Shown: piece after piece, positions 3,001 through 17,350 of the stretch
Position numbering within the stretch: position 1 is the stretch's first letter
How the letters are laid out: each line of letters begins with the position of its first letter
Virus record (IMG/VR): IMGVR_UViG_3300042731_003843
Span: 1 to 21,150 of that record
Source: a virus
Length of the DNA: 21,150 bases
Reading direction: 5' to 3' (one strand)
The notes under the pieces: model-generated
What the model was told of the DNA's origin: nothing
What the model saw: only the letters and a program-made list of their open reading frames with translations
Database searches by the model: none
Program-made: the position numbers and the translations under genes

Positions 3001-4151
3001 TCTGGTCTGATCAGGTAGCGGCTGCTGAACTTAAGATCAACAGCGGCGCTGGTCTCCTCGCAGACAGTGTTGATGTTAGAATCGGTGTTGCAGAATTTGG
3101 TGGTGTCCTAACCACTAGTGATTACCTGCTCCTATCTAATACTGAAATCGTCAAGGTTTCTGAATTGGTATCTACCGACATTCAGTCCCTGGTTGTCACA
3201 GACGGTGGTGATCCTGAAGTCGAGGTATTTAAGGTTGAGTCTACAACTGGTAACACATTTGTGGGCAACACACTATCTGTCGGACAAGGATTTAACAAGT
3301 TCGTTGTTCAAGGTGGAACTGGCGATACCGTAACTCAAGGTAAACTAACCACCAATGATTCTCTGAAGGTAAGAGGATCTGTTGTAGAACTGACCCAGTT
3401 CTTCACACTGACTAACGGTGGATCCGAGAACATCGCTGAAAGAAACACACTCCGTGTTGACACCGCAACTGGTGATCTGGAGATCTATGGTGGTGACTTC
3501 AATATCTTCGGACCTGATGGCACTACACCACGTCTTCAGTTCAACAACTCTTCGGGTGACTTTACTACCTACGGTTCGTTCTCTGCTCTAGGAACAGGAA
3601 CATCAACATTCGGTGGTAGCATTGTTGCTGGTGGTGATCTGACTCTCAATGGTGGTGATCTAACAGTCAACTCTGATGGCAATAAGATCTTCTCGGTTGA
3701 GAATGATGGTGCTGTCAATATCGCTGGCATTAGCAACTACTTCTCACAAACTGGTGGACGTAAGTGGGAATACAGCGACAGCTTTGAAGTTGAGGCAGAA
3801 GCAAACGTTAACTACTTCCTCAACATTACTCAAAATACCATCGTTAAACTACCTACAAACGCTCTAATCGGTGACATGATTCGCATCGTGGACATCGGTG
3901 GTCTTCTAACTTATAACCTCACGCTGGTTGTAAGAGCACCATCTACGATTAGAGTACAAAACGCAACTGACAACACAGGAACCACTCTATTGACAGGCAA
4001 TACTGCTGACCTAAATGGTTATGATGGTGGTGAACTAGTTGTTCAAACACCTAACGCTGGATTCGCACTAGTATTCGCTGGTACGGCTACTCCAGACGGC
4101 GGCACTGCAGTTCCAACAGGAAAAGACGGATGGTTCTTAATCGAGGTCTGA
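1..4151 (+). CDS. Giant virion structural / fibre-like protein, 5'-truncated by window edge
   Basis: The frame is open from the first complete codon at position 3, so the ATG at 558 is internal and the real start lies upstream of the window. 1382 residues are visible. The composition is typical of a beta-structured fibre: rich in Gly, Asn, Thr, Ser, Asp and Val, with no Cys-rich or catalytic signature. Short repeating phrases such as INIGNN / LRIGAN (around nt 1490-1580) and DLTLNGGDLTVNSDG (around 3640-3680) suggest a beta-helix or stacked-strand shaft. A roughly 105-115 residue domain occurs twice (558-869 and 2697-3041). A GSGY-type segment lies at 2223-2403. The protein ends in KDGWFLIEV. 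Codons favour AAC, TTC, ATC and GGT more than the following genes do, which fits a highly expressed late protein. The next gene starts 4 bp after the stop. Its role as a virion fibre or tail-associated protein is inferred from composition and neighbours; no specific T4 counterpart can be named. Confidence 0.8.
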   Translation, partial: RKINAITGEETFLEQAVLEDSGDDDEGIGALVTTFDTAVTFNDKVTIEGDTFLNNPVTINVDPLEGDALRILSLVDTGDDPTQDRSSFRDTRDGDVIITKNQIDAAVYKFNPRGNVNDPGQGYSWRTHYTGGLPSNTSPDNTGLLADGEGGTAFYTLQNISYGSSIFPSSGDVLYKGLEVGSSGSMGWVYANFFTEIADNQIFSIASNNTAELVITWAAGLDNASLGIRVGERLRISNFSNSFLNGSWSVLAGGFSSTGNTVTIRIFNEIAQNVYSWADEGPGAKMEISKSRWKETGVIGAETLRTRTEVPGDYRLGINTIGRMAKEGVLTASVTAETDPRSNLDVVGNAFISGKALVTYDGVGAVTANNYLAEPSVGKTYFTLTNAFLVGGDSADPDDFATLRVATSDLAVADQSSTYRAGGRVGVNTSIGLDASTELDRNFVVIGDSRFSGNITAQDDLSVDGGDINSTAETFRFLTENVDFLIAASDAESFNIGNNTTSDQLINIGNNVSDTSSHTLRIGANAGVTTFEVHKRSTNAFVDIASVEDVVGAACSIKIGGAAPNLNSQTLIGTYQTKLNGTLEVGAFAGTSTTRIFTTAATLNVGDGQNTTKVTLGANSSTVDIAALGGRTTIRNSLLVQGSTTSNSTIKLSGGLNAGIIEIERSRFGTTPSEHIVGSLDNPNITFLKYIQLGRQIDTAGVGPWGGDQYLLSGGQIAAIDNITPEQSATWVANETYSFIQPTGGTGSGALFTVQVLSDGTADITLVSPGSGYSDNDLLTIEASKLGNSNGADLSFRVNGTNDSGNVYLLPITRPSVNDFQIGDLLFIERDTAVDGQDTNISPVGEEYSELLEVAGLTNISDPADPLGFRILVTRAKDGTTARTDHPDNAIISKFDKQINASFITGFDFDDNGTLDPTSSVAINDSSILTIVADGTDIVTVNWNSETNDSVGADYGEFITISGTNIVGLNGTWPIQGGITGTASSLQIKTSQYVSTGTYIWSDQVAAAELKINSGAGLLADSVDVRIGVAEFGGVLTTSDYLLLSNTEIVKVSELVSTDIQSLVVTDGGDPEVEVFKVESTTGNTFVGNTLSVGQGFNKFVVQGGTGDTVTQGKLTTNDSLKVRGSVVELTQFFTLTNGGSENIAERNTLRVDTATGDLEIYGGDFNIFGPDGTTPRLQFNNSSGDFTTYGSFSALGTGTSTFGGSIVAGGDLTLNGGDLTVNSDGNKIFSVENDGAVNIAGISNYFSQTGGRKWEYSDSFEVEAEANVNYFLNITQNTIVKLPTNALIGDMIRIVDIGGLLTYNLTLVVRAPSTIRVQNATDNTGTTLLTGNTADLNGYDGGELVVQTPNAGFALVFAGTATPDGGTAVPTGKDGWFLIEV
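558..869 (+). repeat. Internal duplicated domain, copy 1
   Basis: This segment of about 104 residues contains the phrase LNGSW, then a hydrophobic strand, then YSWADEGPGAKMEIS. The second copy, near 2697-3041, has LNGTW followed by YIWSDQVAAAELKIN in the same order and spacing. The similarity is at protein level and was aligned by eye. Confidence 0.6.
2223..2403 (+). other. GSGY-type beta module within the structural protein
   Basis: The encoded segment runs GTGSGALFTVQV, then SPGSGYSDNDLLTI, then a Gly/Asn linker and ADLSFRV. From memory, similar G-x-GSGY-x-x-x-D-x-L-T-I modules recur in marine phage virion proteins. The function is unknown. It probably forms a compact beta domain inserted in the shaft. 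Confidence 0.45.
2697..3041 (+). repeat. Internal duplicated domain, copy 2
   Basis: This is the second, diverged copy of the domain at 558-869, recognised by LNGTW and YIWSDQ...AELKIN. Both copies precede a stretch rich in 'VG' beta strands, so the duplication may include part of the shaft. Confidence 0.6.
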
Positions 4152-4155
4152 TTTA

Positions 4156-5514
4156 ATGTTTTATCAGGAAGCAAAAACAGCAAGATCGGCGGTGGTTGGC
4201 ACCATCATGCCGTGGACGGGGGGATTAACTAACATCCCTCCTGGGTGGATTCTATGTGATGGTGGTGTTGTAGATGCAGCAGATTATCCACTGCTTACAC
4301 AAGCTATTGGTAATACATATGATGCGTTGGGGGGATCTATTACAGGAAGCTTTCCAAGTTATTCTGGAACGGTCAAGTTACCTGACTTGAATGAAAAAAC
4401 ATTGATGGATATTGAATCGAGTTACTTCGCTCCTGTTGCAAATGGTGGTACAGGTAGAGCTGCAGACATAGATTCTGATGCTCTCACTCTCATTTCACCA
4501 ATCATTGGGGACCATGTTGACAATGGTGTTACAATTTCACCAACAGATGTTACTGTTGATGTTCTCTTTAATATAAACGCTGGTGATAGAACTGGATATT
4601 CAGGAAAGATCACGGGTAATACAAAAGAAGATGGAGAAGGTGTTGCAACGGTTTACATCGGTCCTAGAAAATTAGGAAGAAAGCACGTTAAGAGACATAA
4701 CCACCCAGGAACATACAGAACACTGGATGATCAAACCCGAACACTACCTGGTAGAGGTGTTTCTGGATACGAGAACATTAAATACACACTATATCACTCA
4801 CACGTTGATAACGAGGGTGGTAGTGATCAGGGTGATACCTACTACTTTGGTTGGTCGAGTGATAGTCCTGGTGACGGCAACGCAGAGACAGTTGATTCGC
4901 GCCCTGGTATTGTGATTGGTGACGCAGTGGCGTCCAACCCGACTAGTCAAGAAATTGACTATATGATGACTTGGCCAGCAAATGGTGATTATGCGCCTGA
5001 TGGACATGGTGGTGGAACGCAAGGTGTTGTTATAGCACACGTACAATCCGAGAGTCCTCCTGTTAACTTGAAACCTAAACAATGTTTATCAACTCCTATT
5101 TCAACTCAATTTAAGGTAACTAATTTAAGACCTGAAGGAGCATTTCTAGATCAAAATAGGGCAGTTCCAGCAGCTGCTAGAGGTGGTACTTTGAATATTC
5201 CTCAAGGATTTACAAATTACTATGATGACAGCAACCAAACCGCATCACAACTTCGTGATACATTAATGAGTCATATCGGACTCAATTTTACAAATACTGA
5301 TCCTGGTGGTGATTTTATTGAAGCACATGATCATGGGGAATTTGATGTTGAGTTTGATTCATCTGGATTGAGACCCAATAGTAGTATTGTATGTGAGGTT
5401 AACCTTCCAGCAACAGTCAATGTAGATAATACACAGAATGAAAAAGCATTGCAAATTGACGTGAACATAGCACAACCAACTCTTTCTTGCATATACATCA
5501 TCAGAGCATACTAA
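4156..5514 (+). CDS. Tail-collar-domain protein (short-tail-fibre-like), 452 aa
   Basis: A phage tail collar domain (the family around T4 gp12-like short fibres) occupies about residues 14-88. GTIMPWTG is followed by IPPGWILCDG (28-36), YPLLTQAIGNTY (44-55) and VKLPDLN (73-79). Downstream are His pairs in the pattern HxH: H181/H183, H214/H216 and another near residue 395 in AHDH. In gp12-type fibres such His pairs help bind a metal ion in the trimer; that role here is inferred. The C-terminus ends CIYIIRAY, a tail shared with two other collar proteins in this window. GAGG lies about 9 nt before the ATG, and the gene starts 4 bp after the preceding stop. It is probably a receptor-binding or baseplate-associated fibre. 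The codons are less C-ending than in the gene before it. Confidence 0.85.
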   Translation: MFYQEAKTARSAVVGTIMPWTGGLTNIPPGWILCDGGVVDAADYPLLTQAIGNTYDALGGSITGSFPSYSGTVKLPDLNEKTLMDIESSYFAPVANGGTGRAADIDSDALTLISPIIGDHVDNGVTISPTDVTVDVLFNINAGDRTGYSGKITGNTKEDGEGVATVYIGPRKLGRKHVKRHNHPGTYRTLDDQTRTLPGRGVSGYENIKYTLYHSHVDNEGGSDQGDTYYFGWSSDSPGDGNAETVDSRPGIVIGDAVASNPTSQEIDYMMTWPANGDYAPDGHGGGTQGVVIAHVQSESPPVNLKPKQCLSTPISTQFKVTNLRPEGAFLDQNRAVPAAARGGTLNIPQGFTNYYDDSNQTASQLRDTLMSHIGLNFTNTDPGGDFIEAHDHGEFDVEFDSSGLRPNSSIVCEVNLPATVNVDNTQNEKALQIDVNIAQPTLSCIYIIRAY

Positions 5515-5515
5515 A

Positions 5516-6433
5516 ATGGGAAAGTCTATATCTACTAATTACGCCAGACAGAAATCTCACTGGGGTGGTGTTCCTGGAACCATTCAGATTCATACCGTTC
5601 CTGGTATGGGATTTAATAATGATCCTACGACTGCGGTATTTAAAGATAACTTACCTGGTGGTTTTTTGAGATGCAATGGTGCTATCTTAAATGCAAAAGA
5701 TTATCTTCTATTGTCTAGAATTTTAGGTGTAGGCACTGAATGTAGATTTGCAAAACCAAATGCTATTCTGCGTGATCCTGATCCCGAGACAGGAGATCTT
5801 GGATCATTTCAGTTACCTGATCTAGGATCTAAAGTTATGATTGGTGGTAGAGGATCGGGTGAATACCGCGAGACAACTATGACCAATAAACCCAACCAAA
5901 ACAAGGTTGGTGTTGAGGTTACACCAAATACACCACTTGGTGAAAGGTTGTCCACAAACTATGTCTCCAGTAATGGAGATGGCATGAAAGTTACAGCGCA
6001 ATCAAGTATTGATTTTAGAGGTAATATTAAGTTCAATATGCCTAGGAATGTTGAGCCTACTATCGTTTCGATTGAACAGTTCCAAGCACACCAGCATGAC
6101 GCTGATTTGCGTATTTTGAATATTACATCTGATGGTTATAATACTGATGGTGATGGACTTACTGGTGACGCTGATTCGGCATTTGATGCAAACGTAGAAG
6201 CACAAAACATTCTAGATGAAGTTCAACCAAATGTGCAAAGAGGTTCGGTTCAACACGACCATAGAATTACAAAACCTTTTACTTACAGCAATAATTTCTC
6301 TTATTCATTCCCAGCTACGAACATACCGTTGGACGACATGGAATCATATATCGATGTTGATACAACCAACTTGGATGTTTTGAATCAAGTTGTAACTCCA
6401 TTCATCATGGTACACTATATCATCAAGTTCTGA
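5516..6433 (+). CDS. Tail-collar-domain protein, 305 aa
   Basis: A second collar domain lies near the N-terminus (about residues 18-112): GTIQIHTVPG, then LPGGFLRCNG (46-55), KDYLLLSRILG (61-71) and FQLPDLGSKV (98-107). Two His-rich motifs follow: AHQHD near residue 190 and QHDH near 245, resembling the HxH metal sites of short tail fibres. The C-terminus MVHYIIKF matches the YII(K/R)xY/F ending of the other two collar proteins here. The start is 1 bp after the stop of the upstream collar gene, so the two are probably translated together and may be diverged duplicates. The function is inferred as a tail or baseplate fibre component. Confidence 0.8.
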   Translation: MGKSISTNYARQKSHWGGVPGTIQIHTVPGMGFNNDPTTAVFKDNLPGGFLRCNGAILNAKDYLLLSRILGVGTECRFAKPNAILRDPDPETGDLGSFQLPDLGSKVMIGGRGSGEYRETTMTNKPNQNKVGVEVTPNTPLGERLSTNYVSSNGDGMKVTAQSSIDFRGNIKFNMPRNVEPTIVSIEQFQAHQHDADLRILNITSDGYNTDGDGLTGDADSAFDANVEAQNILDEVQPNVQRGSVQHDHRITKPFTYSNNFSYSFPATNIPLDDMESYIDVDTTNLDVLNQVVTPFIMVHYIIKF

Positions 6434-6434
6434 T

Positions 6435-7946
6435 ATGGCTACGTATAACAATACCTACACGTATAGTAGCAGTCAGCGTTTAAGATCAGATGTAAAGCAA
6501 GTTAATTATATTGTTGTTGCTGGTGGTGGGGGTGGTGCCCGACCTAATGCTGGTTTTGGTAGATCTCCTAATAATGGTCAAGATACTAGACTCAATACCA
6601 CAGGATTATGGTCGCAGGGTGGTAGACATGGAGAACTAAATCGTGGTGGTTATGGTGGATATGGAAACTACAATTATGGTAGGAATGGTCGTATTAACTA
6701 TTCTGGTGGTCAATATGAGCGTGCTAGATCTGGTTATGGAAATAGTGGATCTGGTGGTGCGGGACAGTGGAGAGCGCCTAGTTTAACTGGTGGTGGCGGT
6801 GGTGGTGGTGCCTCGCGCTCAACATACTATCGAGGATCGAGTGGTGCTATCGCTGGTCAAAGAGTATATTGGACGATCGGGCAAGGTGGTACACAAGGTG
6901 GTAACGGACAGCGCAGAAGGGGTGACAATGGAGCAATCTATATTTCTCAAACTACATATGACCGCCCTTCTGCTAGCATAAGTGCAAGCCCAACTAGTAT
7001 TATTCAAGGTAACTCCACTACACTATCTTGGAGTACGGGTGGAGATATTACCAGCGTTAGTATTGGTGGTGGTGTCGGTAATGTTGGTACTAGCGGATCA
7101 TTAAATGTCTCTCCAAACACTACGACTTCATATACACTTTCGGCAACTAATCCAGCATATACAACAAATGATACTGTCACAGTTACTGTATTGATTCCAC
7201 CGCAAGTTAATATGACTGTTGACAATCCTACTATTGTCTTGGGAGAAAGCACTACCTTGAGATGGAATGTTAGTGGTGATGCCAGTTCAATGACGATTGA
7301 CAACGGAATTGGAAGCACAAACCTTTCTGGTCAGCAAACAATTACACCAACATCAACCATAGTTTATACAGGAACTGCTAGTGGACCTGGTGGAACAGGT
7401 AGTGACACTGCGGTTGTTACAGTATTGCCACCACCAACATTGAGTGTTTCTGGTCCGATTGTGGTTGGATATGAAGATCCAATAACTTTTAGTATAGAAG
7501 CAACAAATGCACCAGGTGGTATTAGTTATGTCTATTCGCAGGTTAATACTGACGGTAGCACAGAAGCTGTGACAGATCCAGTAATAATCCCAAACAGCAA
7601 TGGAGATTTGGTCAACATTACGGATTTTGAATTTACTCCTGTGTATGATAACTTTGGACCATCTTCGGTATCAATTACTTTCACTGCCAATGGATATGGT
7701 GGACTGCTATCACAAGATGTCGAAGTTATTCCTATCAATATTGATCAGACTCCTAATGCTATTGACATTCCCTCAACTGAAGATAAGTTGAGAGATGAAG
7801 AACCTGTTATCACACCTAACGTTGAGGTTACGTCAGAACAGATTGTAATTGAAGATATTGACATCCCTGTAGAAATTAAGTCTGATTATCCTATTCAGGT
7901 TGAGATAGAGAATGAAGATGTCTGGTATAATGTGAGGGAGATCTAA
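6435..7946 (+). CDS. Modular adhesin 1: glycine-rich head, Ig-like domains, shared C-terminal module (503 aa)
   Basis: Residues 1 to about 170 form a glycine-rich head that opens with a strand and a run of Gly (YIVVAGGGGG near 25-34), followed by many GG/NYG/GYG segments and GGGGGGG near 124. This pattern is known from Gly-rich phage tail adhesins, where Gly-rich segments can pack as polyglycine-II helices. Two Ig-like domains follow (about 177-254 and 255-331), each with STTLxW near the start and a TYT/YTGTASGPGG strand near the end. A third beta domain spans about 332-433, and the 70-residue module shared with the next three genes is 434-503. There is no signal peptide or membrane segment. 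The next start codon overlaps this stop (TAATG). It is most likely a virion receptor-binding protein; the head-attachment-tail orientation is inferred from what is variable and what is conserved. Confidence 0.75.
   Translation: MATYNNTYTYSSSQRLRSDVKQVNYIVVAGGGGGARPNAGFGRSPNNGQDTRLNTTGLWSQGGRHGELNRGGYGGYGNYNYGRNGRINYSGGQYERARSGYGNSGSGGAGQWRAPSLTGGGGGGGASRSTYYRGSSGAIAGQRVYWTIGQGGTQGGNGQRRRGDNGAIYISQTTYDRPSASISASPTSIIQGNSTTLSWSTGGDITSVSIGGGVGNVGTSGSLNVSPNTTTSYTLSATNPAYTTNDTVTVTVLIPPQVNMTVDNPTIVLGESTTLRWNVSGDASSMTIDNGIGSTNLSGQQTITPTSTIVYTGTASGPGGTGSDTAVVTVLPPPTLSVSGPIVVGYEDPITFSIEATNAPGGISYVYSQVNTDGSTEAVTDPVIIPNSNGDLVNITDFEFTPVYDNFGPSSVSITFTANGYGGLLSQDVEVIPINIDQTPNAIDIPSTEDKLRDEEPVITPNVEVTSEQIVIEDIDIPVEIKSDYPIQVEIENEDVWYNVREI
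7734..7943 (+). repeat. Shared 70-residue C-terminal module, copy 1
   Basis: The module begins INIDQTPNAIDIPS and ends VWYNVREI. By eye it is identical to copy 2 at about 59 of 70 residues. It has four conserved Pro-containing phrases (TPNAIDIP, PVITP, DIPVE, YPIQVE) and is acidic. The conserved VREI codons also supply the ribosome binding site of the next gene. Confidence 0.9.
7935..7940 (+). promoter_or_regulatory. Ribosome binding site (AGGGAG) inside the end of adhesin 1
   Basis: AGGGAG lies 5 nt before the ATG at 7946. It is formed by the Arg-Glu codons of the C-terminal module, so translation of adhesin 2 is coupled to the last codons of adhesin 1. Confidence 0.6.
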
Positions 7947-9295
7947 TGCCACAGGTTAGTATTTCATGGTCTAGAAACGCAGGCGATAGTAACTACCTAT
8001 ATGGTATGCCTGGTGGAACCATTGGTCCCAATAGTGGTAGTAGAACTGTAAATGTTGGGTGGAACCAAACATATTATCTGTCTGCTAATGGTAGTGGTCC
8101 TGGTAGTGTTGGCATGAGAAGATTAAACAACAACACACTTGGTCTTGACGATAGACAAGGTGCTGGTGCTGACAATGACTACAATGACATGATCATATAT
8201 GTCAATAATGGTGGATTTATTAGTAATAATGCATATCGTGGTCCTGCTCCTGTTTATGGGTGTACTAATTCAGGTGCGATTAACTACAACCCTGGTGCAG
8301 ATCTTGATGATGGTAGTTGTGTAGTTGTCAATCCAATACTAAATCTTGATGCTACTCCTAATTCAATTATTAGGGGACAGAGCACTACGCTATCTTGGTC
8401 TACTAGCGATTCGCAATATATACAAACAGCTAACATTGGTCCTGCGCCTGGCGCTGTAAATACATCTGGAAGTGCCGTTGTTACACCAATCGAGACAACA
8501 ACATATGACTATACTGTTACGTGGGCAAATGGAAGTAGACAAACCACTCGTACAGTTACGGTATATGTACCACCAGAAATTACAGTATCATTAGATAATA
8601 ATCCGATTATTCTTGGAGAGACAACCACATTGAGGTGGAACACTAGTGGTGATGCATCTACCATGACTATTGATCCTGGTATTGGATCAACTCTTTTATC
8701 TAGTGCTCAATCAGTAACACCAACACAAGACACTACCTATACTCTTACTGCTACTGGACCTGGTGGTACAGATACTAAACAGATTACGTTGACTGTTATT
8801 CAACCACCAGAACTAGATTTGACTGGTCCTCTTGCAATACCTTATGGTCAATCTACTATTGATTTTTCATACGAGGCAGTAAATGCATTGAGTATAGATG
8901 TATTAATAATACAGAGAGATCTAGACAACAGTGATGATTTCTTCATCGGTGCTGCTACAACTGATGGTAGTGTATACACATATACACCAACATGGGGAAA
9001 CAGAGGACCACAATCAATTTTGGTCACAATGACTGCTAACGGGCAAGGTGGATTGCAAACAATAAGACAGGTTAGTGTTCCTATTAACATTGACCAGACT
9101 CCAAATGCTATTGATATTCCATCAACAGAAGATAAATTACGTGGCGAAGAACCAGTTATTACGCCTGATGTTGAGGTAGTTAGTGATCAAATTGTAATTG
9201 AGGATATAGATATTCCTGTAGAGGTAAAAGCTGATTATCCAATTCAGGTCGAGATCGATAATTCTAATGTTTGGTATAACGTACAAGAACTATGA
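7946..9295 (+). CDS. Modular adhesin 2: DUF4114-like head, YGC-GSC motif, Ig-like domains, shared C-terminal module (449 aa)
   Basis: The head (about 1-100) ends in LGLDDRQGAGADNDYNDMII (residues 65-84). This closely resembles the Asp-rich core of DUF4114-type domains (E/D-D-x-x-G-G-x-D-x-D-[FY]-N-D), which are thought to bind calcium; D68, D69, D76, D78 and D81 are candidate ligands. A Cys-bounded motif follows, YGCTNSGAINYNP...DDGSC (C106, C125), probably a small disulfide- or ion-stabilised linker. Two Ig-like domains (about 130-208 and 209-287), a third beta domain (288-379) and the common module (380-449) complete it. The start overlaps the previous stop by one base and the stop overlaps the next ATG (ATGA). 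It is most likely a surface-binding virion protein with a head unrelated to those of its neighbours. Confidence 0.75.
   Translation: MPQVSISWSRNAGDSNYLYGMPGGTIGPNSGSRTVNVGWNQTYYLSANGSGPGSVGMRRLNNNTLGLDDRQGAGADNDYNDMIIYVNNGGFISNNAYRGPAPVYGCTNSGAINYNPGADLDDGSCVVVNPILNLDATPNSIIRGQSTTLSWSTSDSQYIQTANIGPAPGAVNTSGSAVVTPIETTTYDYTVTWANGSRQTTRTVTVYVPPEITVSLDNNPIILGETTTLRWNTSGDASTMTIDPGIGSTLLSSAQSVTPTQDTTYTLTATGPGGTDTKQITLTVIQPPELDLTGPLAIPYGQSTIDFSYEAVNALSIDVLIIQRDLDNSDDFFIGAATTDGSVYTYTPTWGNRGPQSILVTMTANGQGGLQTIRQVSVPINIDQTPNAIDIPSTEDKLRGEEPVITPDVEVVSDQIVIEDIDIPVEVKADYPIQVEIDNSNVWYNVQEL
8255..8314 (+). other. YGC...DDGSC cysteine-bounded motif
   Basis: YGCT...NYNPGADLDDGSC resembles the GCTDxxAxNYxPxAxxDDGSC motif that recurs in secreted proteins of marine bacteria. 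Two copies also occur in adhesin 4. The Asp/Asn-rich middle suggests ion binding, but this is an inference. Confidence 0.6.
9083..9292 (+). repeat. Shared 70-residue C-terminal module, copy 2
   Basis: The module runs from INIDQTPNAIDIPS to WYNVQEL. The ending VQEL differs from VREI of the other copies, so the AGGGAG ribosome binding site seen in copies 1 and 3 is lost here. The next gene instead overlaps the stop by 4 bp. Confidence 0.9.
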
Positions 9296-10974
9296 GTACA
9301 ATAACACAGAGAAGAAATAGTCCTGGTACGGTAACATGGACAGTGCCAGCAGGTGCCACTAATGTTACTTTTACTATTGCCGCTGGTAGTGGTGGTGGAT
9401 CTAAATCGCCTTCTGATGGTAGTCTATGGAATCATAGTAGAGGTGGATTCGGTAGAGCTGGTAACTTCACTATTGCACCAAGAAGTGGTTCATACAATCT
9501 AACATTTTACATTGGTGGGCAAGGTGGTAATGGAGTAGGACCCCAGAATCCTGGTGGCGGTGGTGGTTCTTCCCCTCTCGCTGGTGGTGGTAGTGGACAT
9601 AGATCTGGTGGAGGTGGTGGCGGCGCTACTGCTGTATATGATAGCTGGCTTGGTAGATATACTGCCTGGGTAGGTGGTGGCGGCGGTGCTGGTAGATTCG
9701 GTCAGGACACTGGTATCAGTGGATATTACACTGCTGGTCGTGGTATTGGTGGTGGTGCAACTAGCAGCTCACCTTCATGGAAAACTGGACAATCTGCTCC
9801 TGCTGGTCACCGTGGTGGAGGTGGTGGTGGATCCACTAGTGGTGGTGCAGGAAGTTTAGGTGGCAATCAAACTAGCAATGGATATGGTGGCATTGGTGGT
9901 AACTCTGGTTGGTATAATAATGGAGATATTGGTTGGATTACTAACAGTGGTTATGGAAACTTTGGTAATGGATATGCAGTTCTTTCTTATGTACAACCAC
10001 CACCATCAATTGATACGTTTACGGCTAACCCCACCACATTGATTCTTGGTAATACTTTTCAGTTGAACTGGAGTGTATCTGGTAATGTTACTTCGGTCAA
10101 CATTAATAACATTGGAAATGTGAATGCATCTGGAAGTGCTACTGTACTAGCAGAAGGTGATATCACTTACACACTAACTGCTACTGGTCCTGGTGGAACG
10201 GTTGCAAAGAGTGTTTCCATTGATGTCCATATCCCACCGCAGATTACTTTCAGTGTTGACAAACCTCAACTAGTTGGTGGAGATAGTGCTACTTTAACGT
10301 GGAGTGTTACTGGCGATGCTGACACAATGAGCATCAATCCTGGTATTGGCAGCACCAACCTCTCTGGCACTCAAGTTATACAACCATCACAAGACACTAC
10401 ATATACTGCTGTTGCTAGTGGTCTTGGTGGTACTGACACTGAACAGCTTACTGTTGAAGTTGTATACCCACCAGAAGTTCAGTTAACTGGACCACTATCT
10501 ACTGATTATGGTGATGATATAACTTTGACATATAATGCAGACAATGCTGTTACTTCATTGCAAGTGTTGAGAAAATATGTCAGTCAGGGAAATCCTGAAC
10601 CAGACTGGACATTAGCATTTGATTTACCTACAGGTCAAAACACAACTGGAACCTTACTGTTCTCTCCAGATTATGATAATTTTGGACCAGATGTTGTTCA
10701 GTTCCAGTTATATGCCGTTGGTGAAGCAGGATTGAACGATACTGCTACTTTTGATGCATTCATCAATATTGACAGAACGCCTGATGCTATTGATATTCCT
10801 ACATCCGAAGATAAACTTCGTGATGAGCAACCAGTCATCACACCTGATGCAGAAGTAACGTCACAACAGATTTTGATCGATGATATTGATGTTCCTGTTG
10901 AGATCAAAGCAGATCAACCTATTCAGGTTGAGATAGATGATAGCGGTACATTCCAAGATATTAGGGAGATCTAG
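9292..10974 (+). CDS. Modular adhesin 3: long glycine-rich head, Ig-like domains, shared C-terminal module (560 aa)
   Basis: The head (about residues 1-235) begins with the strand TVTWTVPAGATNVTFTIAAG, typical of Gly-rich phage tail domains. It then carries repeated polyglycine blocks (GGGG near 88-92, GGGGGGA near 106-112, GGGGG near 128-132, GGGGGG near 175-180). Two Ig-like domains (about 238-314 and 315-394), a third beta domain (395-490) and the common 70-residue module (491-560) follow. The head is like that of adhesin 1 but longer and with different Gly blocks, consistent with an old duplication followed by divergence. It starts by ATGA overlap with adhesin 2. Its role as a receptor-binding or virion-surface adhesin is inferred, by analogy with Gly-rich T-even adhesins; there is no sequence evidence for a specific receptor. 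Confidence 0.75.
   Translation: MSTITQRRNSPGTVTWTVPAGATNVTFTIAAGSGGGSKSPSDGSLWNHSRGGFGRAGNFTIAPRSGSYNLTFYIGGQGGNGVGPQNPGGGGGSSPLAGGGSGHRSGGGGGGATAVYDSWLGRYTAWVGGGGGAGRFGQDTGISGYYTAGRGIGGGATSSSPSWKTGQSAPAGHRGGGGGGSTSGGAGSLGGNQTSNGYGGIGGNSGWYNNGDIGWITNSGYGNFGNGYAVLSYVQPPPSIDTFTANPTTLILGNTFQLNWSVSGNVTSVNINNIGNVNASGSATVLAEGDITYTLTATGPGGTVAKSVSIDVHIPPQITFSVDKPQLVGGDSATLTWSVTGDADTMSINPGIGSTNLSGTQVIQPSQDTTYTAVASGLGGTDTEQLTVEVVYPPEVQLTGPLSTDYGDDITLTYNADNAVTSLQVLRKYVSQGNPEPDWTLAFDLPTGQNTTGTLLFSPDYDNFGPDVVQFQLYAVGEAGLNDTATFDAFINIDRTPDAIDIPTSEDKLRDEQPVITPDAEVTSQQILIDDIDVPVEIKADQPIQVEIDDSGTFQDIREI
10762..10971 (+). repeat. Shared 70-residue C-terminal module, copy 3
   Basis: The module runs from INIDRTPDAIDIPT to FQDIREI. 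It is the most diverged copy at its end (FQDI in place of WYNV), but it keeps all four Pro phrases except that YPIQVE reads QPIQVE. Confidence 0.9.
10963..10968 (+). promoter_or_regulatory. Ribosome binding site (AGGGAG) inside the end of adhesin 3
   Basis: AGGGAG sits 8 nt before the ATG at 10977 and is again made by the Arg-Glu codons of the shared module. It supports the 10977 start. Confidence 0.6.
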
Positions 10975-10976
10975 AC

Positions 10977-12551
10977 ATGGGTGCTCAAGGTAATTTACAT
11001 ACTTTTGATGAGTTTTACTATCCCTATAACCCATCAAATCAGCGTGGTGGTGACCATTTTTATACCTCAAATCCTGGTGGAGAGAGCTTGGGTGCTTACT
11101 ATCAGACAGGTACTAATGTGTGGAAACTCTTCATGTCTGCTAGCGTCCCAGGCATCCCATACGGTCAATCAGTAGGAACTATCTACAGATTTTATAGCGA
11201 CTCTATTGTAGATCACTTATTTAAGTTTGGGTCTAATGTTCCTAGCAGTGCTTATGTATTAGAAGGTGCTGTTGGAGTTGCATTTACACAGAATGGACCT
11301 TATCGCCAACCAATTTATAGATATTACAATCCTAGTGATGGCGACCACAAATTTTCAACTAGCAGTAGTACGCCTAGTGGATGGGTCTATGAAGGTGTTG
11401 CGTGGTACTCTCCAATTCCTGTCTATGGGTGTAAAGATTCTAGTGCTACTAACTATAATCCATGGGCAAATCAACCAAGCACTGGATGTACCTATATTGT
11501 CTATGGATGTACTGATCCTAATGCTAGTAACTACAATTCTAGTGCTACAAACAATGACGGTAGTTGTACATACCCAAATCCAACTGTTTCGTTAAGTTTG
11601 AGTCCTAATTCAATCATTCAGGGGCAGAGTGCATCATTGTCGTGGAGTACATTTAATTCTACGTCACAGTCAATTACAAATATTGGTGGAGTTGCTAGTT
11701 CTGGTAGTGTGAATGTATCTCCTAGTTCTACAACAACATATACACTCACTGGAAACTATTATGGATATACATCTGCGAGTGTAAGTAGAACTCTCACGGT
11801 ATATCAACCACCAAGTATTTCATTTACTGTAGATGATAGTGAGATTGTTAGATTAGATACTACAATATTACGTTGGAGTGTGAGTGGTAGTGTAAGCACA
11901 GTGACCATCAGTCCTGAAATTGGTTCTACTAATATATCTTCTCAAGCGACTATTTCTCCAACAACAACCACTACATATACTTTGTCTGCCGATGGTCCTG
12001 GTGGAGCTGCTAGCGCACAACTTACTGTCACTGTGGTAGATCCGCCATCAGTTTCTCTTAATGGTCCTCTGGCAGTATCTTATGGAGATAACATAACACT
12101 CTCCCATGAGATGTCTAGAGCAACAGCATCATATTTGCTATACATACAGGAGACAGATCTTGACGGCAATGTAACTACTCCGTCTGTCAGTCCTGTTGAT
12201 CTTGGAGCAGGAAATTCCGCAAATGCTTCTTACACTCATTTAGTTACTTATCATGATAGAGGACCTGCTTCTATACAATATTCACTAACTGGAGTTGGTA
12301 GTGGTGGATTGACTGATGTAGATGTTGTCACTGTACCTATCAATATCGATCAAACACCTAATGCTATACAGATTCCATCATCTGAAGATAAATTGCGTGA
12401 TGAAGCACCAGTTATTACTCCTGATGTAGAAGTAACAACTGATCAACTTTTAATTGAGGAGATTGATATACCTGTGGAGGTCAAATCTGATTATCCTATT
12501 CAGGTTGAAATTGAAAACAGTGGAACATACATTGAGGTCAGAGAGATCTGA
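10977..12551 (+). CDS. Modular adhesin 4: DUF5648-like head, two YGC motifs, Ig-like domains, shared C-terminal module (524 aa)
   Basis: The head (about 1-147) has three imperfect units: GGDHFYTSN (24-32), then IYRFYSDSIVDHLFKF (69-84) with YVLEG (93-97), then IYRYYNPSDGDHKFST (113-128) with WVYEGVAWY (136-144). This [IV]YR[FY]Y-x(5)-DH-x-[FY] and EG-x-x pattern matches DUF5648 repeats found in secreted bacterial and fungal proteins. Two Cys motifs follow (YGCKD...TGC at 150-171; YGCTD...DGSC at 176-197). Two Ig-like domains (about 200-277 and 278-357), a third beta domain (358-454) and the common module (455-524) complete it. The start is 2 bp after the previous stop, with AGGGAG at 10963-10968. 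It is probably a virion adhesin; the target is unknown, but a carbohydrate is plausible. Confidence 0.75.
   Translation: MGAQGNLHTFDEFYYPYNPSNQRGGDHFYTSNPGGESLGAYYQTGTNVWKLFMSASVPGIPYGQSVGTIYRFYSDSIVDHLFKFGSNVPSSAYVLEGAVGVAFTQNGPYRQPIYRYYNPSDGDHKFSTSSSTPSGWVYEGVAWYSPIPVYGCKDSSATNYNPWANQPSTGCTYIVYGCTDPNASNYNSSATNNDGSCTYPNPTVSLSLSPNSIIQGQSASLSWSTFNSTSQSITNIGGVASSGSVNVSPSSTTTYTLTGNYYGYTSASVSRTLTVYQPPSISFTVDDSEIVRLDTTILRWSVSGSVSTVTISPEIGSTNISSQATISPTTTTTYTLSADGPGGAASAQLTVTVVDPPSVSLNGPLAVSYGDNITLSHEMSRATASYLLYIQETDLDGNVTTPSVSPVDLGAGNSANASYTHLVTYHDRGPASIQYSLTGVGSGGLTDVDVVTVPINIDQTPNAIQIPSSEDKLRDEAPVITPDVEVTTDQLLIEEIDIPVEVKSDYPIQVEIENSGTYIEVREI
11424..11567 (+). repeat. Tandem YGC cysteine motifs
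   Basis: Two adjacent copies lie here: YGCKDSSATNYNPWA...TGC and YGCTDPNASNYNSSA...DGSC. They correspond to the single copy in adhesin 2, showing that this linker unit varies in number between paralogues. Confidence 0.65.
12339..12548 (+). repeat. Shared 70-residue C-terminal module, copy 4
   Basis: The module runs from INIDQTPNAIQIPS to YIEVREI. It is the last copy. The gene downstream is unrelated and has its own probable promoter, so the array ends here. Confidence 0.9.
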
Positions 12552-12557
12552 TAAATA
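12550..12557 (+). promoter_or_regulatory. Probable T4-type late promoter (GATAAATA)
   Basis: GATAAATA matches the T4 late promoter TATAAATA at 7 of 8 positions. It lies at the largest gap in the structural region, 31 nt before the ATG at 12589. A similar element (AATAAATA) lies 29 nt before the ATG at 16400. No -35 element is needed by gp55-type sigma factors. Confidence 0.5.
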
Positions 12558-12588: not shown

Positions 12589-15500
12589 ATGACCTTTTCG
12601 TTCGGAACTACACCAGTATATGTAAGCGAAGGGCAAACTATTCGCCTGAAGTTTAAAGCACCTTCGGCGTGGGATACAACACAGAGTGTAACGGTTCAGA
12701 TCGGTGATCAGCAAACAATCTGGTATATCTCTACAGTTCCAGAAGACTTTGCTCCTGATCCATTCCCATTTACACCACTAGATGATGCAACACCAGACGT
12801 TATGTACGTCTATGGTGATGGTACTAGAGCACAAGAAGATATTGTTGAGGTTGCTGGACTAACACCTGGATCATCTGCTAGTGTTTCTCTAGTATCATCT
12901 TATCTTGGAACTAATATTGATGACTACGCTGTTCGTATTCAGCTAGTACACCAAGGTGAAGCAGACTTTGGTGACTGGGTTATTCCAACTAGTAACATCT
13001 TCGTACAAAATGGTGACAGACTCCAGTTAAGACTCAAGTCTAATGATACTGGTGGTCTAACTAGAACTGCTGACCTGACTATTGGTGCAAGAACCGAGAG
13101 ATGGCAGATCACATCAGCGGTTCAACCACCTAACATTCCAGAACCATTCCCTGATTTTAATGAAATTACTGGTGCGCCAGTTGATGTGGATGTTTATAGT
13201 GAGATCTTAAGAGTCACTGGTCTAAATGCACAGGCAGTGGTTAATACTGATAATAATGCTAGAATTGGTATCTCTTCTAGTAATGCTTTCGTTGTAAACG
13301 ATCTAGGATATAGTGTTCTAGATGGTGTTACTTTTGTCGATTCTAGCACCAATCCAACTATTCAAAATGGTGAGTATCTACAGTTAGTATTAACCACTCC
13401 AGTAACATCAACGACTACAGTTACAAACTTGTTAAGCATTGGTGATGCTGTCGGTGGATCTAGTTGGGGTGTTACTACTGGTAGTTTCCCATCAACTACA
13501 CCACAATCATTTGTATTTACAGATGAACCAAGTGCAGAAGAAGATGCACTGATTGCGTCTGATGTAAAACCAGTTGGTGGAATCACTGGACTGGGTGCTG
13601 GTGTATCTGTACCTGTAACACTAGTATCTACAGATGGTACGGAACCAAGAGTTAAAATTTACTATGACGATGGTAGTGAGAGTTCTGTCGGAATCTTCCC
13701 CACAGATGTAAGCAACGGAGATAGTATTCAGATCTATAACAGATCTAGTGCTACATTCAGTGCTACAGTACAAACTACGATTAAAGTTGGTACACTACAG
13801 GTTCCTACATGGTCTATCGTTACAAACTCTGGTCCTGATACTGACGCTGACTTCACAGCACCAGCAAGTCTTTCAAACAAAGCACCCAACAGACAGTATG
13901 TTAGTTCTGTTGTTAGTGTTTCTGGTATCAACAGAGATATTACAATCACAGGTACAAATAATGTACTGATTTCTATTGACTTTGACACACCAGTTGTGGG
14001 ACCAAGAACATTTACACCTTCCAACAGTAGTGTCCAGTTCTATCTAACTTCTGGTGGTCTTGCAAGCACGGTGAGCAGTACCATCACTATTGGTACTGGT
14101 AGCAGCAATCAGTTTATCTGGAACGTTTCGACATATGCTGTTGCTCCACCACCTCCAGAATTACTGGGAACATGGTATAGTAGGAAGAACTCTTACACAT
14201 ATGAAGACTCTAATGGTGATCTCCAACTACGAAATTCAAAGGATGATGGTCTCGCTATTGGTACAGTTCTTTCCATTCTTAAGCAACCAGGCGGAAGTTA
14301 TGGTACAATAGATGGTGATCTAGATTCTAGATATCCTGGTTTTATTGAGTGTGATGGTAGAAGTCTTTCTAAAGATTCTTATGGAGATCTATTTGCTGTC
14401 ATCGGATATACTTATGGTGGTTCTGGTGCTAACTTCAATGTTCCAGATTATAGAAACAGGAAACTCACTGGTTGTGGTGTTGTTGATGGAAATAGAGCAT
14501 CTTCTGCTTTCTTGCCAACAAACAATATCAATGAACCAGGTAACATTGGAGGATGGTGGTACATTGATAAGGTAGACGTTGCTGGTGATAATCCTTATGA
14601 GCAGATCATTGGTACTGGTAACACAGGTAACGAGAGTAACTTCTTTAACTTTGGTACAGTAAAGACCCAGTTCAACGCACCTATCCAAGCTGACATTGAG
14701 TTTGCTGTTGTTGGTACAGTAACTGCACAGATTGGACAGTTGCAGGAGAAACTAATTGATGTTCCTGTACACACTCACCTATATGTTAGTGCCGTCACTG
14801 ATGATATTGGTGCAACAGGTTTGATTCCATGGGAAACTCAAGTTCTGGCTAGTGGTTCCCCTGGTAATACTGGATTTGAAAATAGCACCCCACTTGGAAC
14901 AACTGGTATGGGTGATGGTCCATATGTTGATTACATCGGTGGTGGTGGTACTGACGAACTCTTCCGAGAACTTCCTGAAACCTGGTATGACTTATGGATT
15001 GGAGAATTGGATCGTAAAGTTGGTAGACCTGACTTTAAAACTGTTTGGGATAACATTTTATTGACCAATAAAGGAGTTAACTTCAAGGCAGAAATTCTTG
15101 AGTGGGCTAGCACTTGGCCACCGTCACCTCTTGGAGAAAACCAAAACGCAGCACAAGTATCACGTACATTATCTGCAAAAGTATGGTGGCCATCACATTA
15201 CAGTCAACTAGATCCTAATGACGTTGAAAGTGTTTCTACACAATTAACAAATATGCAGAGATATCCAGAAGGAGTATATGGTCAGTCTCGTGCTGGTGCT
15301 GTTGCTGTTTCTGCTGCTATTGACGTTGAGACAAGAAGATTTAGAGTTGAAGCATATACTCCACCAGCAATTCTAGAAGATAATGATACTACAACCTCTT
15401 CTCATAACCACTTGATGGGTCTAACTCCTGTTTTAGATCCAACCCAAGACTTTAGTTATGGCAACCAGAATGGTCCTGGTTCTTTCAAAGAAGGACTAGG

Positions 15501-15708
15501 TAGCTTCGGTAGTACACTTAACGTCACCTTTGATAATAATCAATTCAATGGTAATACAGCACCTGTTGGTCTTATCCTGAATACTGGTACATTTGAGCTC
15601 AACCAAAACATTAAGAAACCAATTCCTAGTGTCACTATGGAACCCAATAGACAGATTCCTGTCATTGAGGAGTTCCACAAAGTCAAATATATAATTAAAG
15701 CATACTAA
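12589..15708 (+). CDS. Tandem beta-repeat fibre with C-terminal tail-collar domain (1039 aa)
   Basis: Residues 1 to about 515 hold five copies of a strand pattern ending IG-x(5-8)-W-x-[IV]: IG39/W45, IG166/W172, IG285/W293, VG401/W408 and IG502/W511. Each is preceded by NGD-x-[LI]-Q-[LI] and a GL/GI-x-V strand. The first copy lacks its front half. A Pro linker (519-523) leads to a tail collar domain: AIGTVLSILKQPGG (556-569), YPGFIECDGRSL (582-593), YGDLFAVIGYTYGG (598-611) and FNVPDYRNRKLTG (616-628). His pairs occur in VPVHTHLY and SSHNHLMG. The C-terminus KVKYIIKAY matches the two smaller collar proteins. The gene follows a 37-bp gap with a probable late promoter and has no clear ribosome binding site. 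It is likely a fibre whose Ig-like repeats space a short-fibre-like tip or base, but the orientation in the virion is unknown. Confidence 0.8.
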   Translation: MTFSFGTTPVYVSEGQTIRLKFKAPSAWDTTQSVTVQIGDQQTIWYISTVPEDFAPDPFPFTPLDDATPDVMYVYGDGTRAQEDIVEVAGLTPGSSASVSLVSSYLGTNIDDYAVRIQLVHQGEADFGDWVIPTSNIFVQNGDRLQLRLKSNDTGGLTRTADLTIGARTERWQITSAVQPPNIPEPFPDFNEITGAPVDVDVYSEILRVTGLNAQAVVNTDNNARIGISSSNAFVVNDLGYSVLDGVTFVDSSTNPTIQNGEYLQLVLTTPVTSTTTVTNLLSIGDAVGGSSWGVTTGSFPSTTPQSFVFTDEPSAEEDALIASDVKPVGGITGLGAGVSVPVTLVSTDGTEPRVKIYYDDGSESSVGIFPTDVSNGDSIQIYNRSSATFSATVQTTIKVGTLQVPTWSIVTNSGPDTDADFTAPASLSNKAPNRQYVSSVVSVSGINRDITITGTNNVLISIDFDTPVVGPRTFTPSNSSVQFYLTSGGLASTVSSTITIGTGSSNQFIWNVSTYAVAPPPPELLGTWYSRKNSYTYEDSNGDLQLRNSKDDGLAIGTVLSILKQPGGSYGTIDGDLDSRYPGFIECDGRSLSKDSYGDLFAVIGYTYGGSGANFNVPDYRNRKLTGCGVVDGNRASSAFLPTNNINEPGNIGGWWYIDKVDVAGDNPYEQIIGTGNTGNESNFFNFGTVKTQFNAPIQADIEFAVVGTVTAQIGQLQEKLIDVPVHTHLYVSAVTDDIGATGLIPWETQVLASGSPGNTGFENSTPLGTTGMGDGPYVDYIGGGGTDELFRELPETWYDLWIGELDRKVGRPDFKTVWDNILLTNKGVNFKAEILEWASTWPPSPLGENQNAAQVSRTLSAKVWWPSHYSQLDPNDVESVSTQLTNMQRYPEGVYGQSRAGAVAVSAAIDVETRRFRVEAYTPPAILEDNDTTTSSHNHLMGLTPVLDPTQDFSYGNQNGPGSFKEGLGSFGSTLNVTFDNNQFNGNTAPVGLILNTGTFELNQNIKKPIPSVTMEPNRQIPVIEEFHKVKYIIKAY

Positions 15709-15723
15709 TATTATTTTATTGTA

Positions 15724-16407
15724 ATGGCAGAACAAGGCATCCCTCCCTATCGTCCCCTGAAACTGATGAAGGATCCAAAAATCACCAAGGTTGATTTTAC
15801 GGATTTTATTGGTGTATGGGAAAACTTCGTGCCCGCTAATCTATGTGAGCAACTCATTGATTATGGTGATAGAGTTTTAAATGAAGACATATCGTCGGTC
15901 ATTGATCTAGAACTAGATCATGATGCAACAGACGCTGATAGAGTTCCCATGAACGGTTCTGAAATGTACGGATCTTCATATACTAGAGAAGATAAGTCTT
16001 TCATGCTAAACTATGCAAGTCAAAAGTACACTATGAACGTCAATCAGATGTTGAAATCCTGTGCTTCTCATTATTGTCAGCAATACTCCACACTGAAGAA
16101 GACTAGGATGGTGTCTACTGATATCAAGTTCCAAAGAACTCCTCCTGGCGGTGGATATCATGCATGGCATTATGAGAATGGTACGTTTGAGTGCGCTGCC
16201 CGTGAATTGGTGTGGATGATTTACTTGAATGACATCGAAGAGGGTGGCGAAACAGAATTTATGTATCAGAAACGTAGAATCAAACCTACTCAAGGTACAA
16301 TGGTTATTTTCCCCGCTGGTCTGACACATGTTCATAGGGGCGGTTTTCTTCTTGGCGACAAGAATAAATACATAGTAACAGGTTGGTATATGAAAACCCA
16401 TGGCTGA
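15724..16407 (+). CDS. 2-oxoglutarate/Fe(II)-dependent oxygenase (prolyl-hydroxylase-like), 227 aa
   Basis: A double-stranded beta-helix dioxygenase signature is clear in the second half: GGGYHAWHYENG gives the iron ligands H149 and E151 (an H-x-E rather than H-x-D variant). MIYLNDIEEGGETEF is the usual central strand. FPAGLTHVHRG gives the distal His (H202, or less likely H204). A basic residue near KNKYIVTGWY (213-222) should bind the 2-oxoglutarate carboxylate. The family hydroxylates Pro, Asp/Asn or other carbons using O2 and 2-oxoglutarate. The gene starts 15 bp after the collar protein, and its end overlaps the next gene by 8 bp. Such oxygenases are common in T4-like cyanophages but their substrates are not established. 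Placement beside fibre genes suggests a virion protein substrate; this is inference. Confidence 0.85.
   Translation: MAEQGIPPYRPLKLMKDPKITKVDFTDFIGVWENFVPANLCEQLIDYGDRVLNEDISSVIDLELDHDATDADRVPMNGSEMYGSSYTREDKSFMLNYASQKYTMNVNQMLKSCASHYCQQYSTLKKTRMVSTDIKFQRTPPGGGYHAWHYENGTFECAARELVWMIYLNDIEEGGETEFMYQKRRIKPTQGTMVIFPAGLTHVHRGGFLLGDKNKYIVTGWYMKTHG
16363..16370 (+). promoter_or_regulatory. Possible T4-type late promoter (AATAAATA) inside the oxygenase gene
   Basis: AATAAATA matches TATAAATA at 7 of 8 positions and lies 29 nt before the ATG at 16400, almost the same spacing as the element before 12589. It falls in coding sequence, so a chance match is possible. Confidence 0.35.
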
Positions 16408-17350
16408 TATCGAAACAACTATTAGAAAAAGTGTTTTAGAGATTGATCTCATTAACAGTCTCGTGATTGATGCTACTAGTACGCTTATATTACCTAATAA
16501 CACAAAGGTCAATCAACCAATTCAAATCCTTCCTGATATTATGGAAAGATTTAAGACAGAGGTTGTCGGTGACACATTTCATATGGAAGGTGATGAACTA
16601 CAGTATGCTATTTTCTATAGCGATGATACTGCACTTATTCAACGTAAAAAGTTAAAGTATGATTTTGCGACAAATTCATCAACTGAAGTGCAGTATATTT
16701 TCAATGGTGCTACGCAAGAGCAAATTTTGGCACTAAAAGAGAGAGTGACACAACTAGTTGATGCTTCTGGTGTTATTAGAGAGCAGCAGATTAAAGAGAA
16801 GATCGTTAAAATTTCTGAAGAGCGACTATTTTATGATGCCAAGATGAATAAAAGGTTGGAAGAAAGAAAAGCGATGCTGAAGGGTTCTGACTGGCGTGTA
16901 CTTCCTGACATTGAAGATTCTTACGAAGGTGAGAAAGAGATGTGGAAGAAGTGGAGAAAAACACTTCGTGAAATGGACGTGTTCACTGCTACATATGATG
17001 ACACTCTTGCTCTCTTCAAAGCACTTCATAATATGAAGTGGCCAATCGATCCATCAATCTTTAAACAAGTGTTTCCAGATGGTTTAGATGCAAATGGAAA
17101 TCCTATTGAGTATCTTGCAACAGATGATCAGTGGACAAAGAGAGACATTGACGCATCTAAAGACTATGTTGGTGATAGAATGGCTAGTGTCATTGAGTGG
17201 AGAGACAGATCGACTAATGCAAAGAGAAACGTATCACAATCTGTTCAGGATTTAATGAAACTGATGCGTTTGGAAGATTTCGTTGAAAATGGTATTGACT
17301 ATTCTGAATTTTACGATGAGGCAGATATAAATGATTTGGCAACTGAATGA
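16400..17350 (+). CDS. Tail-fibre-assembly-chaperone-like protein, 316 aa
   Basis: A central segment matches the phage tail (fibre) assembly chaperone pattern. SDW (163-165) is followed by LPDI (168-171), W182, WRKTLR (185-190) and, after a spacer, MKWPIDP (212-218). In the known family this appears as SDWt-x-lPD...W-x-x-YRq-x-LR...WP-x-P. Residues 105-160 are charged and probably form a long helix or coiled coil (QEQILALKERV...EERKAML). The N-terminus and the C-terminal 95 residues are not recognised. Family members help fold or trimerise tail fibres and are encoded next to them, which fits this position. The start overlaps the upstream oxygenase by 8 bp and the end overlaps the next oxygenase by 20 bp. 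The chaperone assignment is moderately confident; the remaining parts could have another role. Confidence 0.6.
   Translation: MADIETTIRKSVLEIDLINSLVIDATSTLILPNNTKVNQPIQILPDIMERFKTEVVGDTFHMEGDELQYAIFYSDDTALIQRKKLKYDFATNSSTEVQYIFNGATQEQILALKERVTQLVDASGVIREQQIKEKIVKISEERLFYDAKMNKRLEERKAMLKGSDWRVLPDIEDSYEGEKEMWKKWRKTLREMDVFTATYDDTLALFKALHNMKWPIDPSIFKQVFPDGLDANGNPIEYLATDDQWTKRDIDASKDYVGDRMASVIEWRDRSTNAKRNVSQSVQDLMKLMRLEDFVENGIDYSEFYDEADINDLATE

Follow-up and report, generated by a model that had tools for sequence, protein, structure and literature searches.

Four tandem genes with a shared body and different heads

We analysed a window of 21,150 nt, which is the complete virus record IMGVR_UViG_3300042731_003843, and within it an array of four tandem open reading frames (ORFs) at 6435-12551 that encode proteins of 503, 449, 560 and 524 aa. 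By sequence, the window is DNA of a T4-like marine cyanophage (Kyanoviridae); the nearest named relative found was S-CAM1, to which 16% of the window aligned at ~75% identity. The ORFs nearly abut or overlap, with stop/start overlaps at 7946 and 9292-9295, and each protein is made up of an N-terminal head, a stalk of three immunoglobulin-like (Ig-like) domains (Ig1 to Ig3) and a 70-residue C-terminal module (C-module), arranged as follows.

6435..7946, + strand: copy 1 (503 aa), glycine-rich head, family A (ORF, PHROG, head clustering)
6435..6965, + strand: copy 1 head (177 aa; boundary by body model)
6966..7733, + strand: copy 1 stalk, three Ig-like domains (alignment; fold assigned by analogy to the models of copies 2 and 3)
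7734..7943, + strand: copy 1 C-module (70 aa; alignment)
7946..9295, + strand: copy 2 (449 aa), DUF4114-like head, family D, then Cys repeat GCTNSGAINYNPGADLDDGSC (ORF, Pfam, PHROG, clustering)
7946..8332, + strand: copy 2 head (129 aa; Pfam, body model, clustering)
8333..9082, + strand: copy 2 stalk, three Ig-like domains (AlphaFold, ten-residue blocks with pLDDT, the predicted local distance difference test, of at least 88)
9083..9292, + strand: copy 2 C-module (alignment; monomer-model pLDDT blocks 42-69)
9292..10974, + strand: copy 3 (560 aa), larger glycine-rich head, family B (ORF, PHROG, clustering)
9292..9999, + strand: copy 3 head (236 aa; body model, clustering, AlphaFold)
10000..10761, + strand: copy 3 stalk, three Ig-like domains (body model, AlphaFold, structure matches)
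10762..10971, + strand: copy 3 C-module (alignment; monomer-model pLDDT blocks 36-60)
10977..12551, + strand: copy 4 (524 aa), DUF5648 head, family C, plus Cys repeats (ORF, Pfam, PHROG, clustering)
10977..11579, + strand: copy 4 head (201 aa; PF18885 E 9.6e-12, body model)
11580..12338, + strand: copy 4 stalk, three Ig-like domains (alignment, body model; fold by analogy)
12339..12548, + strand: copy 4 C-module (alignment)

All four copies match the PHROG families phrog_2155 (E 5e-130 to 2.5e-167), 9770 and 29022, and shared-family matches at such E values place their similarity far beyond chance. The last 70 residues align without gaps, the six pairs being identical at 59, 48, 54, 47, 52 and 49 of 70 positions; for copies 1 and 2 the count of 59 equals the figure of about 59 that the original prediction had estimated by eye. 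A hidden Markov model (HMM) of the shared body, 325 positions long, detects the body in every window copy and in the copies of relatives, in some of them in pieces. The alignment and the PHROG matches confirm that four consecutive genes have a common Ig-like body with a 70-residue C-terminal module, and the alignment, the body HMM and the clustering of heads place the constant part at the C-terminus, as predicted.

AlphaFold modelled copies 2 and 3 with a mean pLDDT of 86.5 and 78.8, respectively. Residues 128-388 of the copy 2 model gave structure matches to three-Ig chains, as did the copy 3 model, including titin I67-I69 and NCAM2 Ig1-3; the PDB matches listed are generic Ig chains, with no phage tail-spike or Hoc structure among them. 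The two Ig domains originally proposed for the stalk thus stand, while its "third beta domain" is refined by the matches of copies 2 and 3 to a third Ig-like domain. The C-module is the most conserved domain of the body and yet a low-confidence part of both monomer models, a combination that would fit a segment folding with a partner or as an oligomer.

Heads and their combinations

The heads had been read as three unrelated types; by a strict criterion they form four sequence families. The heads of copy 1 (A) and copy 3 (B) are both glycine-rich, and blastp at E 1e-3 found no match linking any A head to any B head. The copy 2 head is DUF4114-like (Pfam E 5.8e-4, under the curated cut-off), and the copy 4 head matches DUF5648 (PF18885) over the curated cut-off. 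Among relatives' heads there are weak Pfam matches, below cut-off, to PA14 and Gly_rich_2; the copy 3 head model is partly low-confidence, and the Gly_rich_2 match lies only on relatives' heads. Some heads therefore resemble extracellular or adhesin-type domains, DUF5648 being the only one above cut-off. A search of six heads against NCBIfam gave no match, and a von Willebrand factor A-like reading of the H and L heads, based on the motif DTSGSM / DVSGSM, was dropped when Pfam (H, L) and a PDB sequence search (H) lent it no support.

Strict clustering sorted 202 heads into 29 clusters, 17 with at least two members (near-copies counted) and 12 singletons; some of the singletons are composite, and one (U) is truncated where the frame breaks in S-CAM3 isolate 0910TB04. 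Loose single-linkage clustering was discarded, the long composite heads and the Cys repeat having chained most heads together. In isolate 0910TB04 (locus L074, 11105-13176) the sixth gene is split into two frames within its glycine-rich head, either by a true break or by a sequencing error, and S-CAM3 isolate 1010CC42 lacks the split. The fifth array gene of locus L013 (5710-7087) is likewise split over two frames, near its C-module, unlike in L016, L017 and L019.

Array content varies among phages, from two to six genes per isolate read. The window carries the heads in the order A-D-B-C, and its relatives carry A-D-B-C-E, A-B-D (S-CAM1), A-B-C-E-G-V (S-CAM3), A-B-C-G-F, A-B-C-E-F and A-B-F; further orders are K-F (S-CAM4), H-Q-I (Syn1), H-K-I, H-J-I, O-E-H and O-G-H. 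Heads and modules also occur fused. A gene of locus L044 (family P, also in L046) has a C-type head (residues 1-184, 54% identical) followed by a D-type head (191-314, 54% identical) on one body, and two complete modules lie within single ORFs in one ACG-2014e record, in ACG-2014j isolate US23 and in L049, L054 and L055. At three junctions of the fused ORFs the first C-module leads through a linker into the next head or Ig part.

The C-module tends to follow the phage

Within a phage the C-modules are of one kind. Subtype (RF or EI) was uniform in 61/61 loci with at least two modules and in 39/39 after dereplication; 5000 shuffles gave a mean of 16.2 and a maximum of 24. The initial rule, which accepted VRF only, had given 55/61 and 35/39; its six exceptions, of which three are near-copies of a single locus, held the variants VKF or IRF, and the rule was widened post hoc. 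The 61 loci include near-copies; L022 and L059, whose contigs end within the last module, were excluded. Both subtypes carry heads of families E, G, J and K.

For pairwise identities we kept 139 modules from 42 loci out of 217 modules from 71 loci, dropping 23 loci by hand as near-copies or fragments as well as modules lacking an uncut head or having a body below 250 aa; the 42 loci contain many close relatives, and hand removal of 10 left a reduced set of 32. In the reduced set mean C-module identity was 0.635 for genes of the same phage with different heads, 0.586 for the same head in different phages and 0.472 for neither, while the corresponding means for Ig1 were 0.301, 0.454 and 0.299. 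The nearest C-module belonged to the same phage in 32 of 84 cases, to the same head elsewhere in 38 and to neither in 14; the nearest Ig1 was never one from the same phage (0/83).

The two ends also behaved differently when paralogues in one phage were compared with distant orthologues bearing the same head, divergence being measured by the collar gene. The paralogues were the closer ones for the C-module in 36/37 loci, for Ig2 in 21/37, for Ig3 in 9/37 and for Ig1 in 3/37 (27/28, 14/28, 9/28 and 3/28 in the reduced set); the loci are related, and neither these counts nor the sign-flip values of an earlier version are independent trials. That version, with divergence measured by Ig1 itself, gave 36/39 for the C-module and 1/39 for Ig1. 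The comparisons indicate that head and Ig1 are one inherited unit and that the C-module tends to belong to the phage. Given that Ig1 travels with the head, the movable unit would be head plus stalk.

A test for recent gene conversion among the window's C-modules gave no support for it: copies 1 and 2 use identical codons at 30 of their 59 shared residues, and 26.8 are expected from codon usage. All six window pairs exceed expectation, most of all copies 1 and 3 (30/48 vs 21.4), and across loci codon identity is in most cases slightly higher between C-modules of one genome than between those of different genomes at similar protein identity; older gene conversion among C-modules is possible.

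Allelic heads at one position in S-RIM44

A comparison of eight S-RIM44 isolates revealed two alleles at the second position of the array, a 486-aa gene with a K head in four isolates and an 884-aa gene with a Q head in the other four; each allele was isolated from both Rhode Island Sound and Cape Cod Bay. (For isolate Np_20_0711 we used the upstream ATG of gene 2, which matches the other three; its record annotates a later start.) The K and Q alleles are 95.8-96.7% identical over their last 213 nt. Blocks of 60 nt further upstream mostly share 28-40 positions, the number climbing to 47 and 58 at the module. For one pair the comparison was made in full: here a match of 98.2% sets in with ~260 nt of gene 2 still to come and continues for 5,308 nt, reaching near the end of the compared stretch. 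This profile places the 3' junction at or just upstream of the C-module. The Q gene is also present in Syn1, with 878-879 of 885 positions identical, stop included.

The C-modules of genes 2 and 3 of S-RIM44 (L067, 10687-12147 and 12147-13916) are 86.6% identical in DNA, which suggests older homogenisation inside one phage.

Genomic setting of the array

The array is embedded among tail genes, which in the window are the following.

3..4151, + strand: giant tail protein gene, 3' part (phrog_4527, profile length 3730; PHROG)
4156..5514, + strand: short tail fibre protein, Collar domain (phrog_4591, PF07484; Pfam, PHROG)
5516..6433, + strand: tail collar protein (phrog_4714), conserved left neighbour (PHROG, locus survey)
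12589..15708, + strand: short tail fibre protein, Collar domain (phrog_4924), conserved right neighbour (Pfam, PHROG, locus survey)
15724-16407: 2-oxoglutarate (2OG)-Fe(II) oxygenase gene, between the short tail fibre and tail assembly chaperone-like genes (Pfam)
16400..17350, + strand: tail assembly chaperone-like gene (phrog_4697; Pfam, PHROG)

The collar gene directly precedes the array in 53 of the 56 loci with at least 700 nt upstream, the three exceptions being two S-CAM1 records (a larger collar gene, partial alignment) and Sf-FP1, and the short tail fibre gene follows it in 56 of the 57 loci with at least 1500 nt downstream. The C-module occurred 218 times in 213 ORFs over all 71 records searched, most of which had been collected because they carry it. 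In a search of 12 whole phage genomes strong C-module matches proved confined to the array (38/38). A weak match (E 0.0026, NC_031900 37263-37367) lies in the short tail fibre gene adjoining the array of S-CAM4, and could be either chance or a trace of a docking interface. One hit in a bacterial collection was confirmed, in L078 (NYYP01000039.1), titled an Opitutia metagenome-assembled genome; it carries array genes and the short tail fibre gene, which makes it a probable cyanophage contig that was assigned to a bacterial bin.

Two further observations concern the surroundings. The motif ATAAATA, which has been reported from S-PM2 as the core of late promoters in cyanophages (PMC2984593), occurs twice on the + strand, at 12551-12557 (array end, before the short tail fibre gene) and at 16364-16370; this count is not above chance, and promoter scans gave results at chance level. 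Several 2OG oxygenases are listed in the S-CAM1 region that corresponds to the window oxygenase.

Comparison with known systems

The array proteins are homologous to the phrog_2155 "virion structural proteins" of Kyanoviridae (S-CAM1, S-CAM3, S-PM2 p221-p223 and others), which occupy the same place between the collar and short-tail-fibre genes and whose records give no function. Among the literature matches listed, mostly outside subscription papers, there was no description of the array or of its modular rule. According to the portion seen of a 2010 review, T4 tail-fibre genes are missing in marine T4-like cyanophages, and unnamed structural proteins may replace them (PMC2984593).

The closest working analogue is the tail spike protein (TSP) cluster of Ackermannviridae, where, in the excerpts consulted, TSP1-TSP4 are described as several receptor-binding proteins from one gene cluster with constant structural domains and recombining variable heads (PMC11414711). 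Membership fails on polarity: in the TSPs the constant XD/TD part is N-terminal and the heads C-terminal (PMC11414711), whereas the window array is reversed, has an Ig stalk and ends in a different C-terminal module, so the layout of constant N-terminus and variable C-terminal head is not found in it. No Gp10-like XD family was among the Pfam and PHROG matches, a search that involved no direct comparison with an XD model. The same excerpts describe a joint complex for the TSPs (PMC11414711); for the window array, the natural two-module fusions are only suggestive of a joint branched complex. The array would be a variant of the known multi-receptor-binding-protein clusters with the constant part at the opposite end.

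T-even gp38 and phage S16 have glycine-rich adhesins with a presumed distal binding domain. In haloarchaeal adhesins, too, a glycine-rich part is the presumed distal binder, as may hold for two of the four window heads, and in haloarchaeal myoviruses the adhesin gene tracks host range (PMC8651126, seen in part). The likeness is one of composition; unlike in the haloarchaeal and gp38-type adhesins, glycine-rich sequence in the window forms N-terminal heads of Ig fibres that are encoded in an array. As to a polyglycine-II distal domain of the gp38 kind, the observations are the glycine-rich composition of copies 1 and 3, a copy 3 head modelled partly at low confidence, and the weak Gly_rich_2 matches on heads of relatives.

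Pelagimyophages and cyanomyophages have a hypervariable tail-fibre region, the host recognition cluster of T4-like marine phages, which the part of the source available places between VrlC and gp14 (PMC7029224). The array of S-CAM3 lies ~24 kb before gp25/gp6, from which we infer that it is a different locus; the positions of VrlC and gp14 in S-CAM3 were not located.

Weighing the function of the array

With a probability of roughly 60%, we infer that the array encodes several tail-associated adhesins that dock by the C-module, carry exchangeable heads pointing N-terminus outward, bind receptors through these heads and are displayed simultaneously. A number of observations weigh against this, and several of them favour one of three alternatives.

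The fibres might decorate the capsid in the manner of Hoc, with the C-terminus on the capsid and the heads outward, providing weak unspecific adhesion instead of host recognition. The T4 Hoc capsid fibre is built of Ig-like domains and docks by its C-terminus, and the array shares the Ig-like domains (structure matches of copies 2 and 3). Such a role is also suggested by the PHROG category of the array family, "head and packaging", and by viral-structure matches, among which an "outer capsid protein" of S-SCSM1 stands at rank 13 and two "highly immunogenic outer capsid" proteins stand at ranks 36 and 48. These outer-capsid matches are, however, weak Ig matches among many other viral proteins, and the window neighbours are tail-fibre, collar and tail-assembly-chaperone genes, with collar and short tail fibre flanking the array in nearly all checkable loci. 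In contrast to Hoc, the array lies in a tail-fibre locus and comprises two to six paralogues with large variable heads; no family named as a capsid-binding C-terminal domain was among its Pfam and PHROG matches, the C-module having no confident fold in the AlphaFold monomer models. We regard capsid decoration as unlikely, and count the PHROG category, the missing fold and the original S-PM2 record, which names only the middle of three paralogues a "virion structural protein", as points to be set against tail-associated adhesins.

A second possibility, which we consider improbable, is that the genes are ordinary ancient paralogues with fixed heads, differing between phages by gene gain and loss, the C-modules being alike through strong constraint. 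Head order is indeed fixed within the window's close relatives, where the A and B heads are more conserved than Ig1 in 5/5 comparisons each and the D head in 3/5 with two ties (the C head in 0/4). The nearest C-module, over the full set of 42 loci, is more often that of the same head elsewhere than one from the same phage (79 vs 27 of 122). Three further findings count against the adhesin reading: across the same 42 loci same-phage and same-head pairs have an equal mean C-module identity (0.661 vs 0.659), the occurrence of E, G and J on both subtypes depends in each case on one RF locus, and gene 1 of S-RIM44 differs as well (79% aa identity), which leaves the 5' edge of the exchange unclean. 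The window C-modules are near saturation at synonymous sites, implying that their present uniformity is kept by selection or old events. Between ACG-2014j isolates US103 and US23, moreover, homology breaks off at the start codon (ATG) of gene 2 and returns, at 92%, ~205 nt ahead of the gene's end; the C-module is 76% identical (160/210) vs 92% in the flanks, which indicates that the whole gene was probably replaced, C-module included. Constraint alone nevertheless does not account for the 36/37 result of the C-module beside the reverse pattern of Ig1, nor does it explain the S-RIM44 alleles. The fixed heads of the window clade together with the ACG-2014j case indicate that exchange is occasional and not always head-only. 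The cassette array of the original prediction accordingly holds for a constant C-module with exchangeable N-terminal parts, as seen in S-RIM44, the subtypes and the module distribution, and is weakened by the fixed heads and the ACG-2014j case; the head swaps it expected among related phages are met as head-plus-stalk alleles in S-RIM44 and are absent from the window's close relatives.

Very unlikely, finally, is a reversed polarity in which the constant C-module is a host-matched receptor-binding tip and the variable N-termini serve as accessory or assembly domains, since a fused protein can contain the C-module internally, followed by another head, and the variable ends bear extracellular or adhesin-type domains, even if the module's phage-specific uniformity could track the host rather than a virion partner and Ackermannviridae tail spikes do combine a constant N-terminus with a variable C-terminus (PMC11414711, in part).

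Experimental evolution bears on the tail-associated adhesins from both sides. In a 500-day co-culture of S-PM2d and Synechococcus, as given in the main text of a study seen in part, mutations arose early in d218, d219 and d224 (PMC9910659), which together with d220 flank the S-PM2 array on either side, by identifier mapping. Against their significance, d220 was mutated late and in one of three chemostats, 18 ORFs were mutated early, and that main text names no ORF among d221-d223; mutations 61 and 62 fall between d220 and d224 in the numbering, for which it gives no gene (PMC9910659). S-PM2 and its passaged derivative S-PM2d are identical over the aligned locus, from which no array mutation is inferable.

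A working model and its meaning

In the model of tail-associated adhesins, each protein would hold a variable binding head outward on a three-Ig stalk and dock by a C-module fitted to a partner particular to each phage. With several array genes per phage, particles would probably present several heads together. Recombination would bring in new heads, as whole genes or, in the manner of S-RIM44, as a head and stalk joined on at the C-module, and after the arrival of a head the resident C-module sequence would be retained or brought back into line. More tentatively, and at somewhat less than even odds, we picture a plug-in multi-adhesin system in which each phage has a private C-terminal plug, draws on a head pool shared among cyanophages (17 recurrent sequence clusters plus singletons), any member of which could be displayed after being joined to the plug, bears 2-6 heads per virion and changes its host range by combining stable heads instead of through mutation of a single tip.

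Little is known about which proteins bind receptors in marine T4-like cyanophages, and the locus supplies concrete candidates for them, with the C-module as a rule for recognising candidate adhesin genes. The S-RIM44 isolates, which carry different heads at one position, constitute a natural experiment. If the heads bind receptors, the binding repertoire of an uncultured cyanophage could be read from the order of genes in its array.

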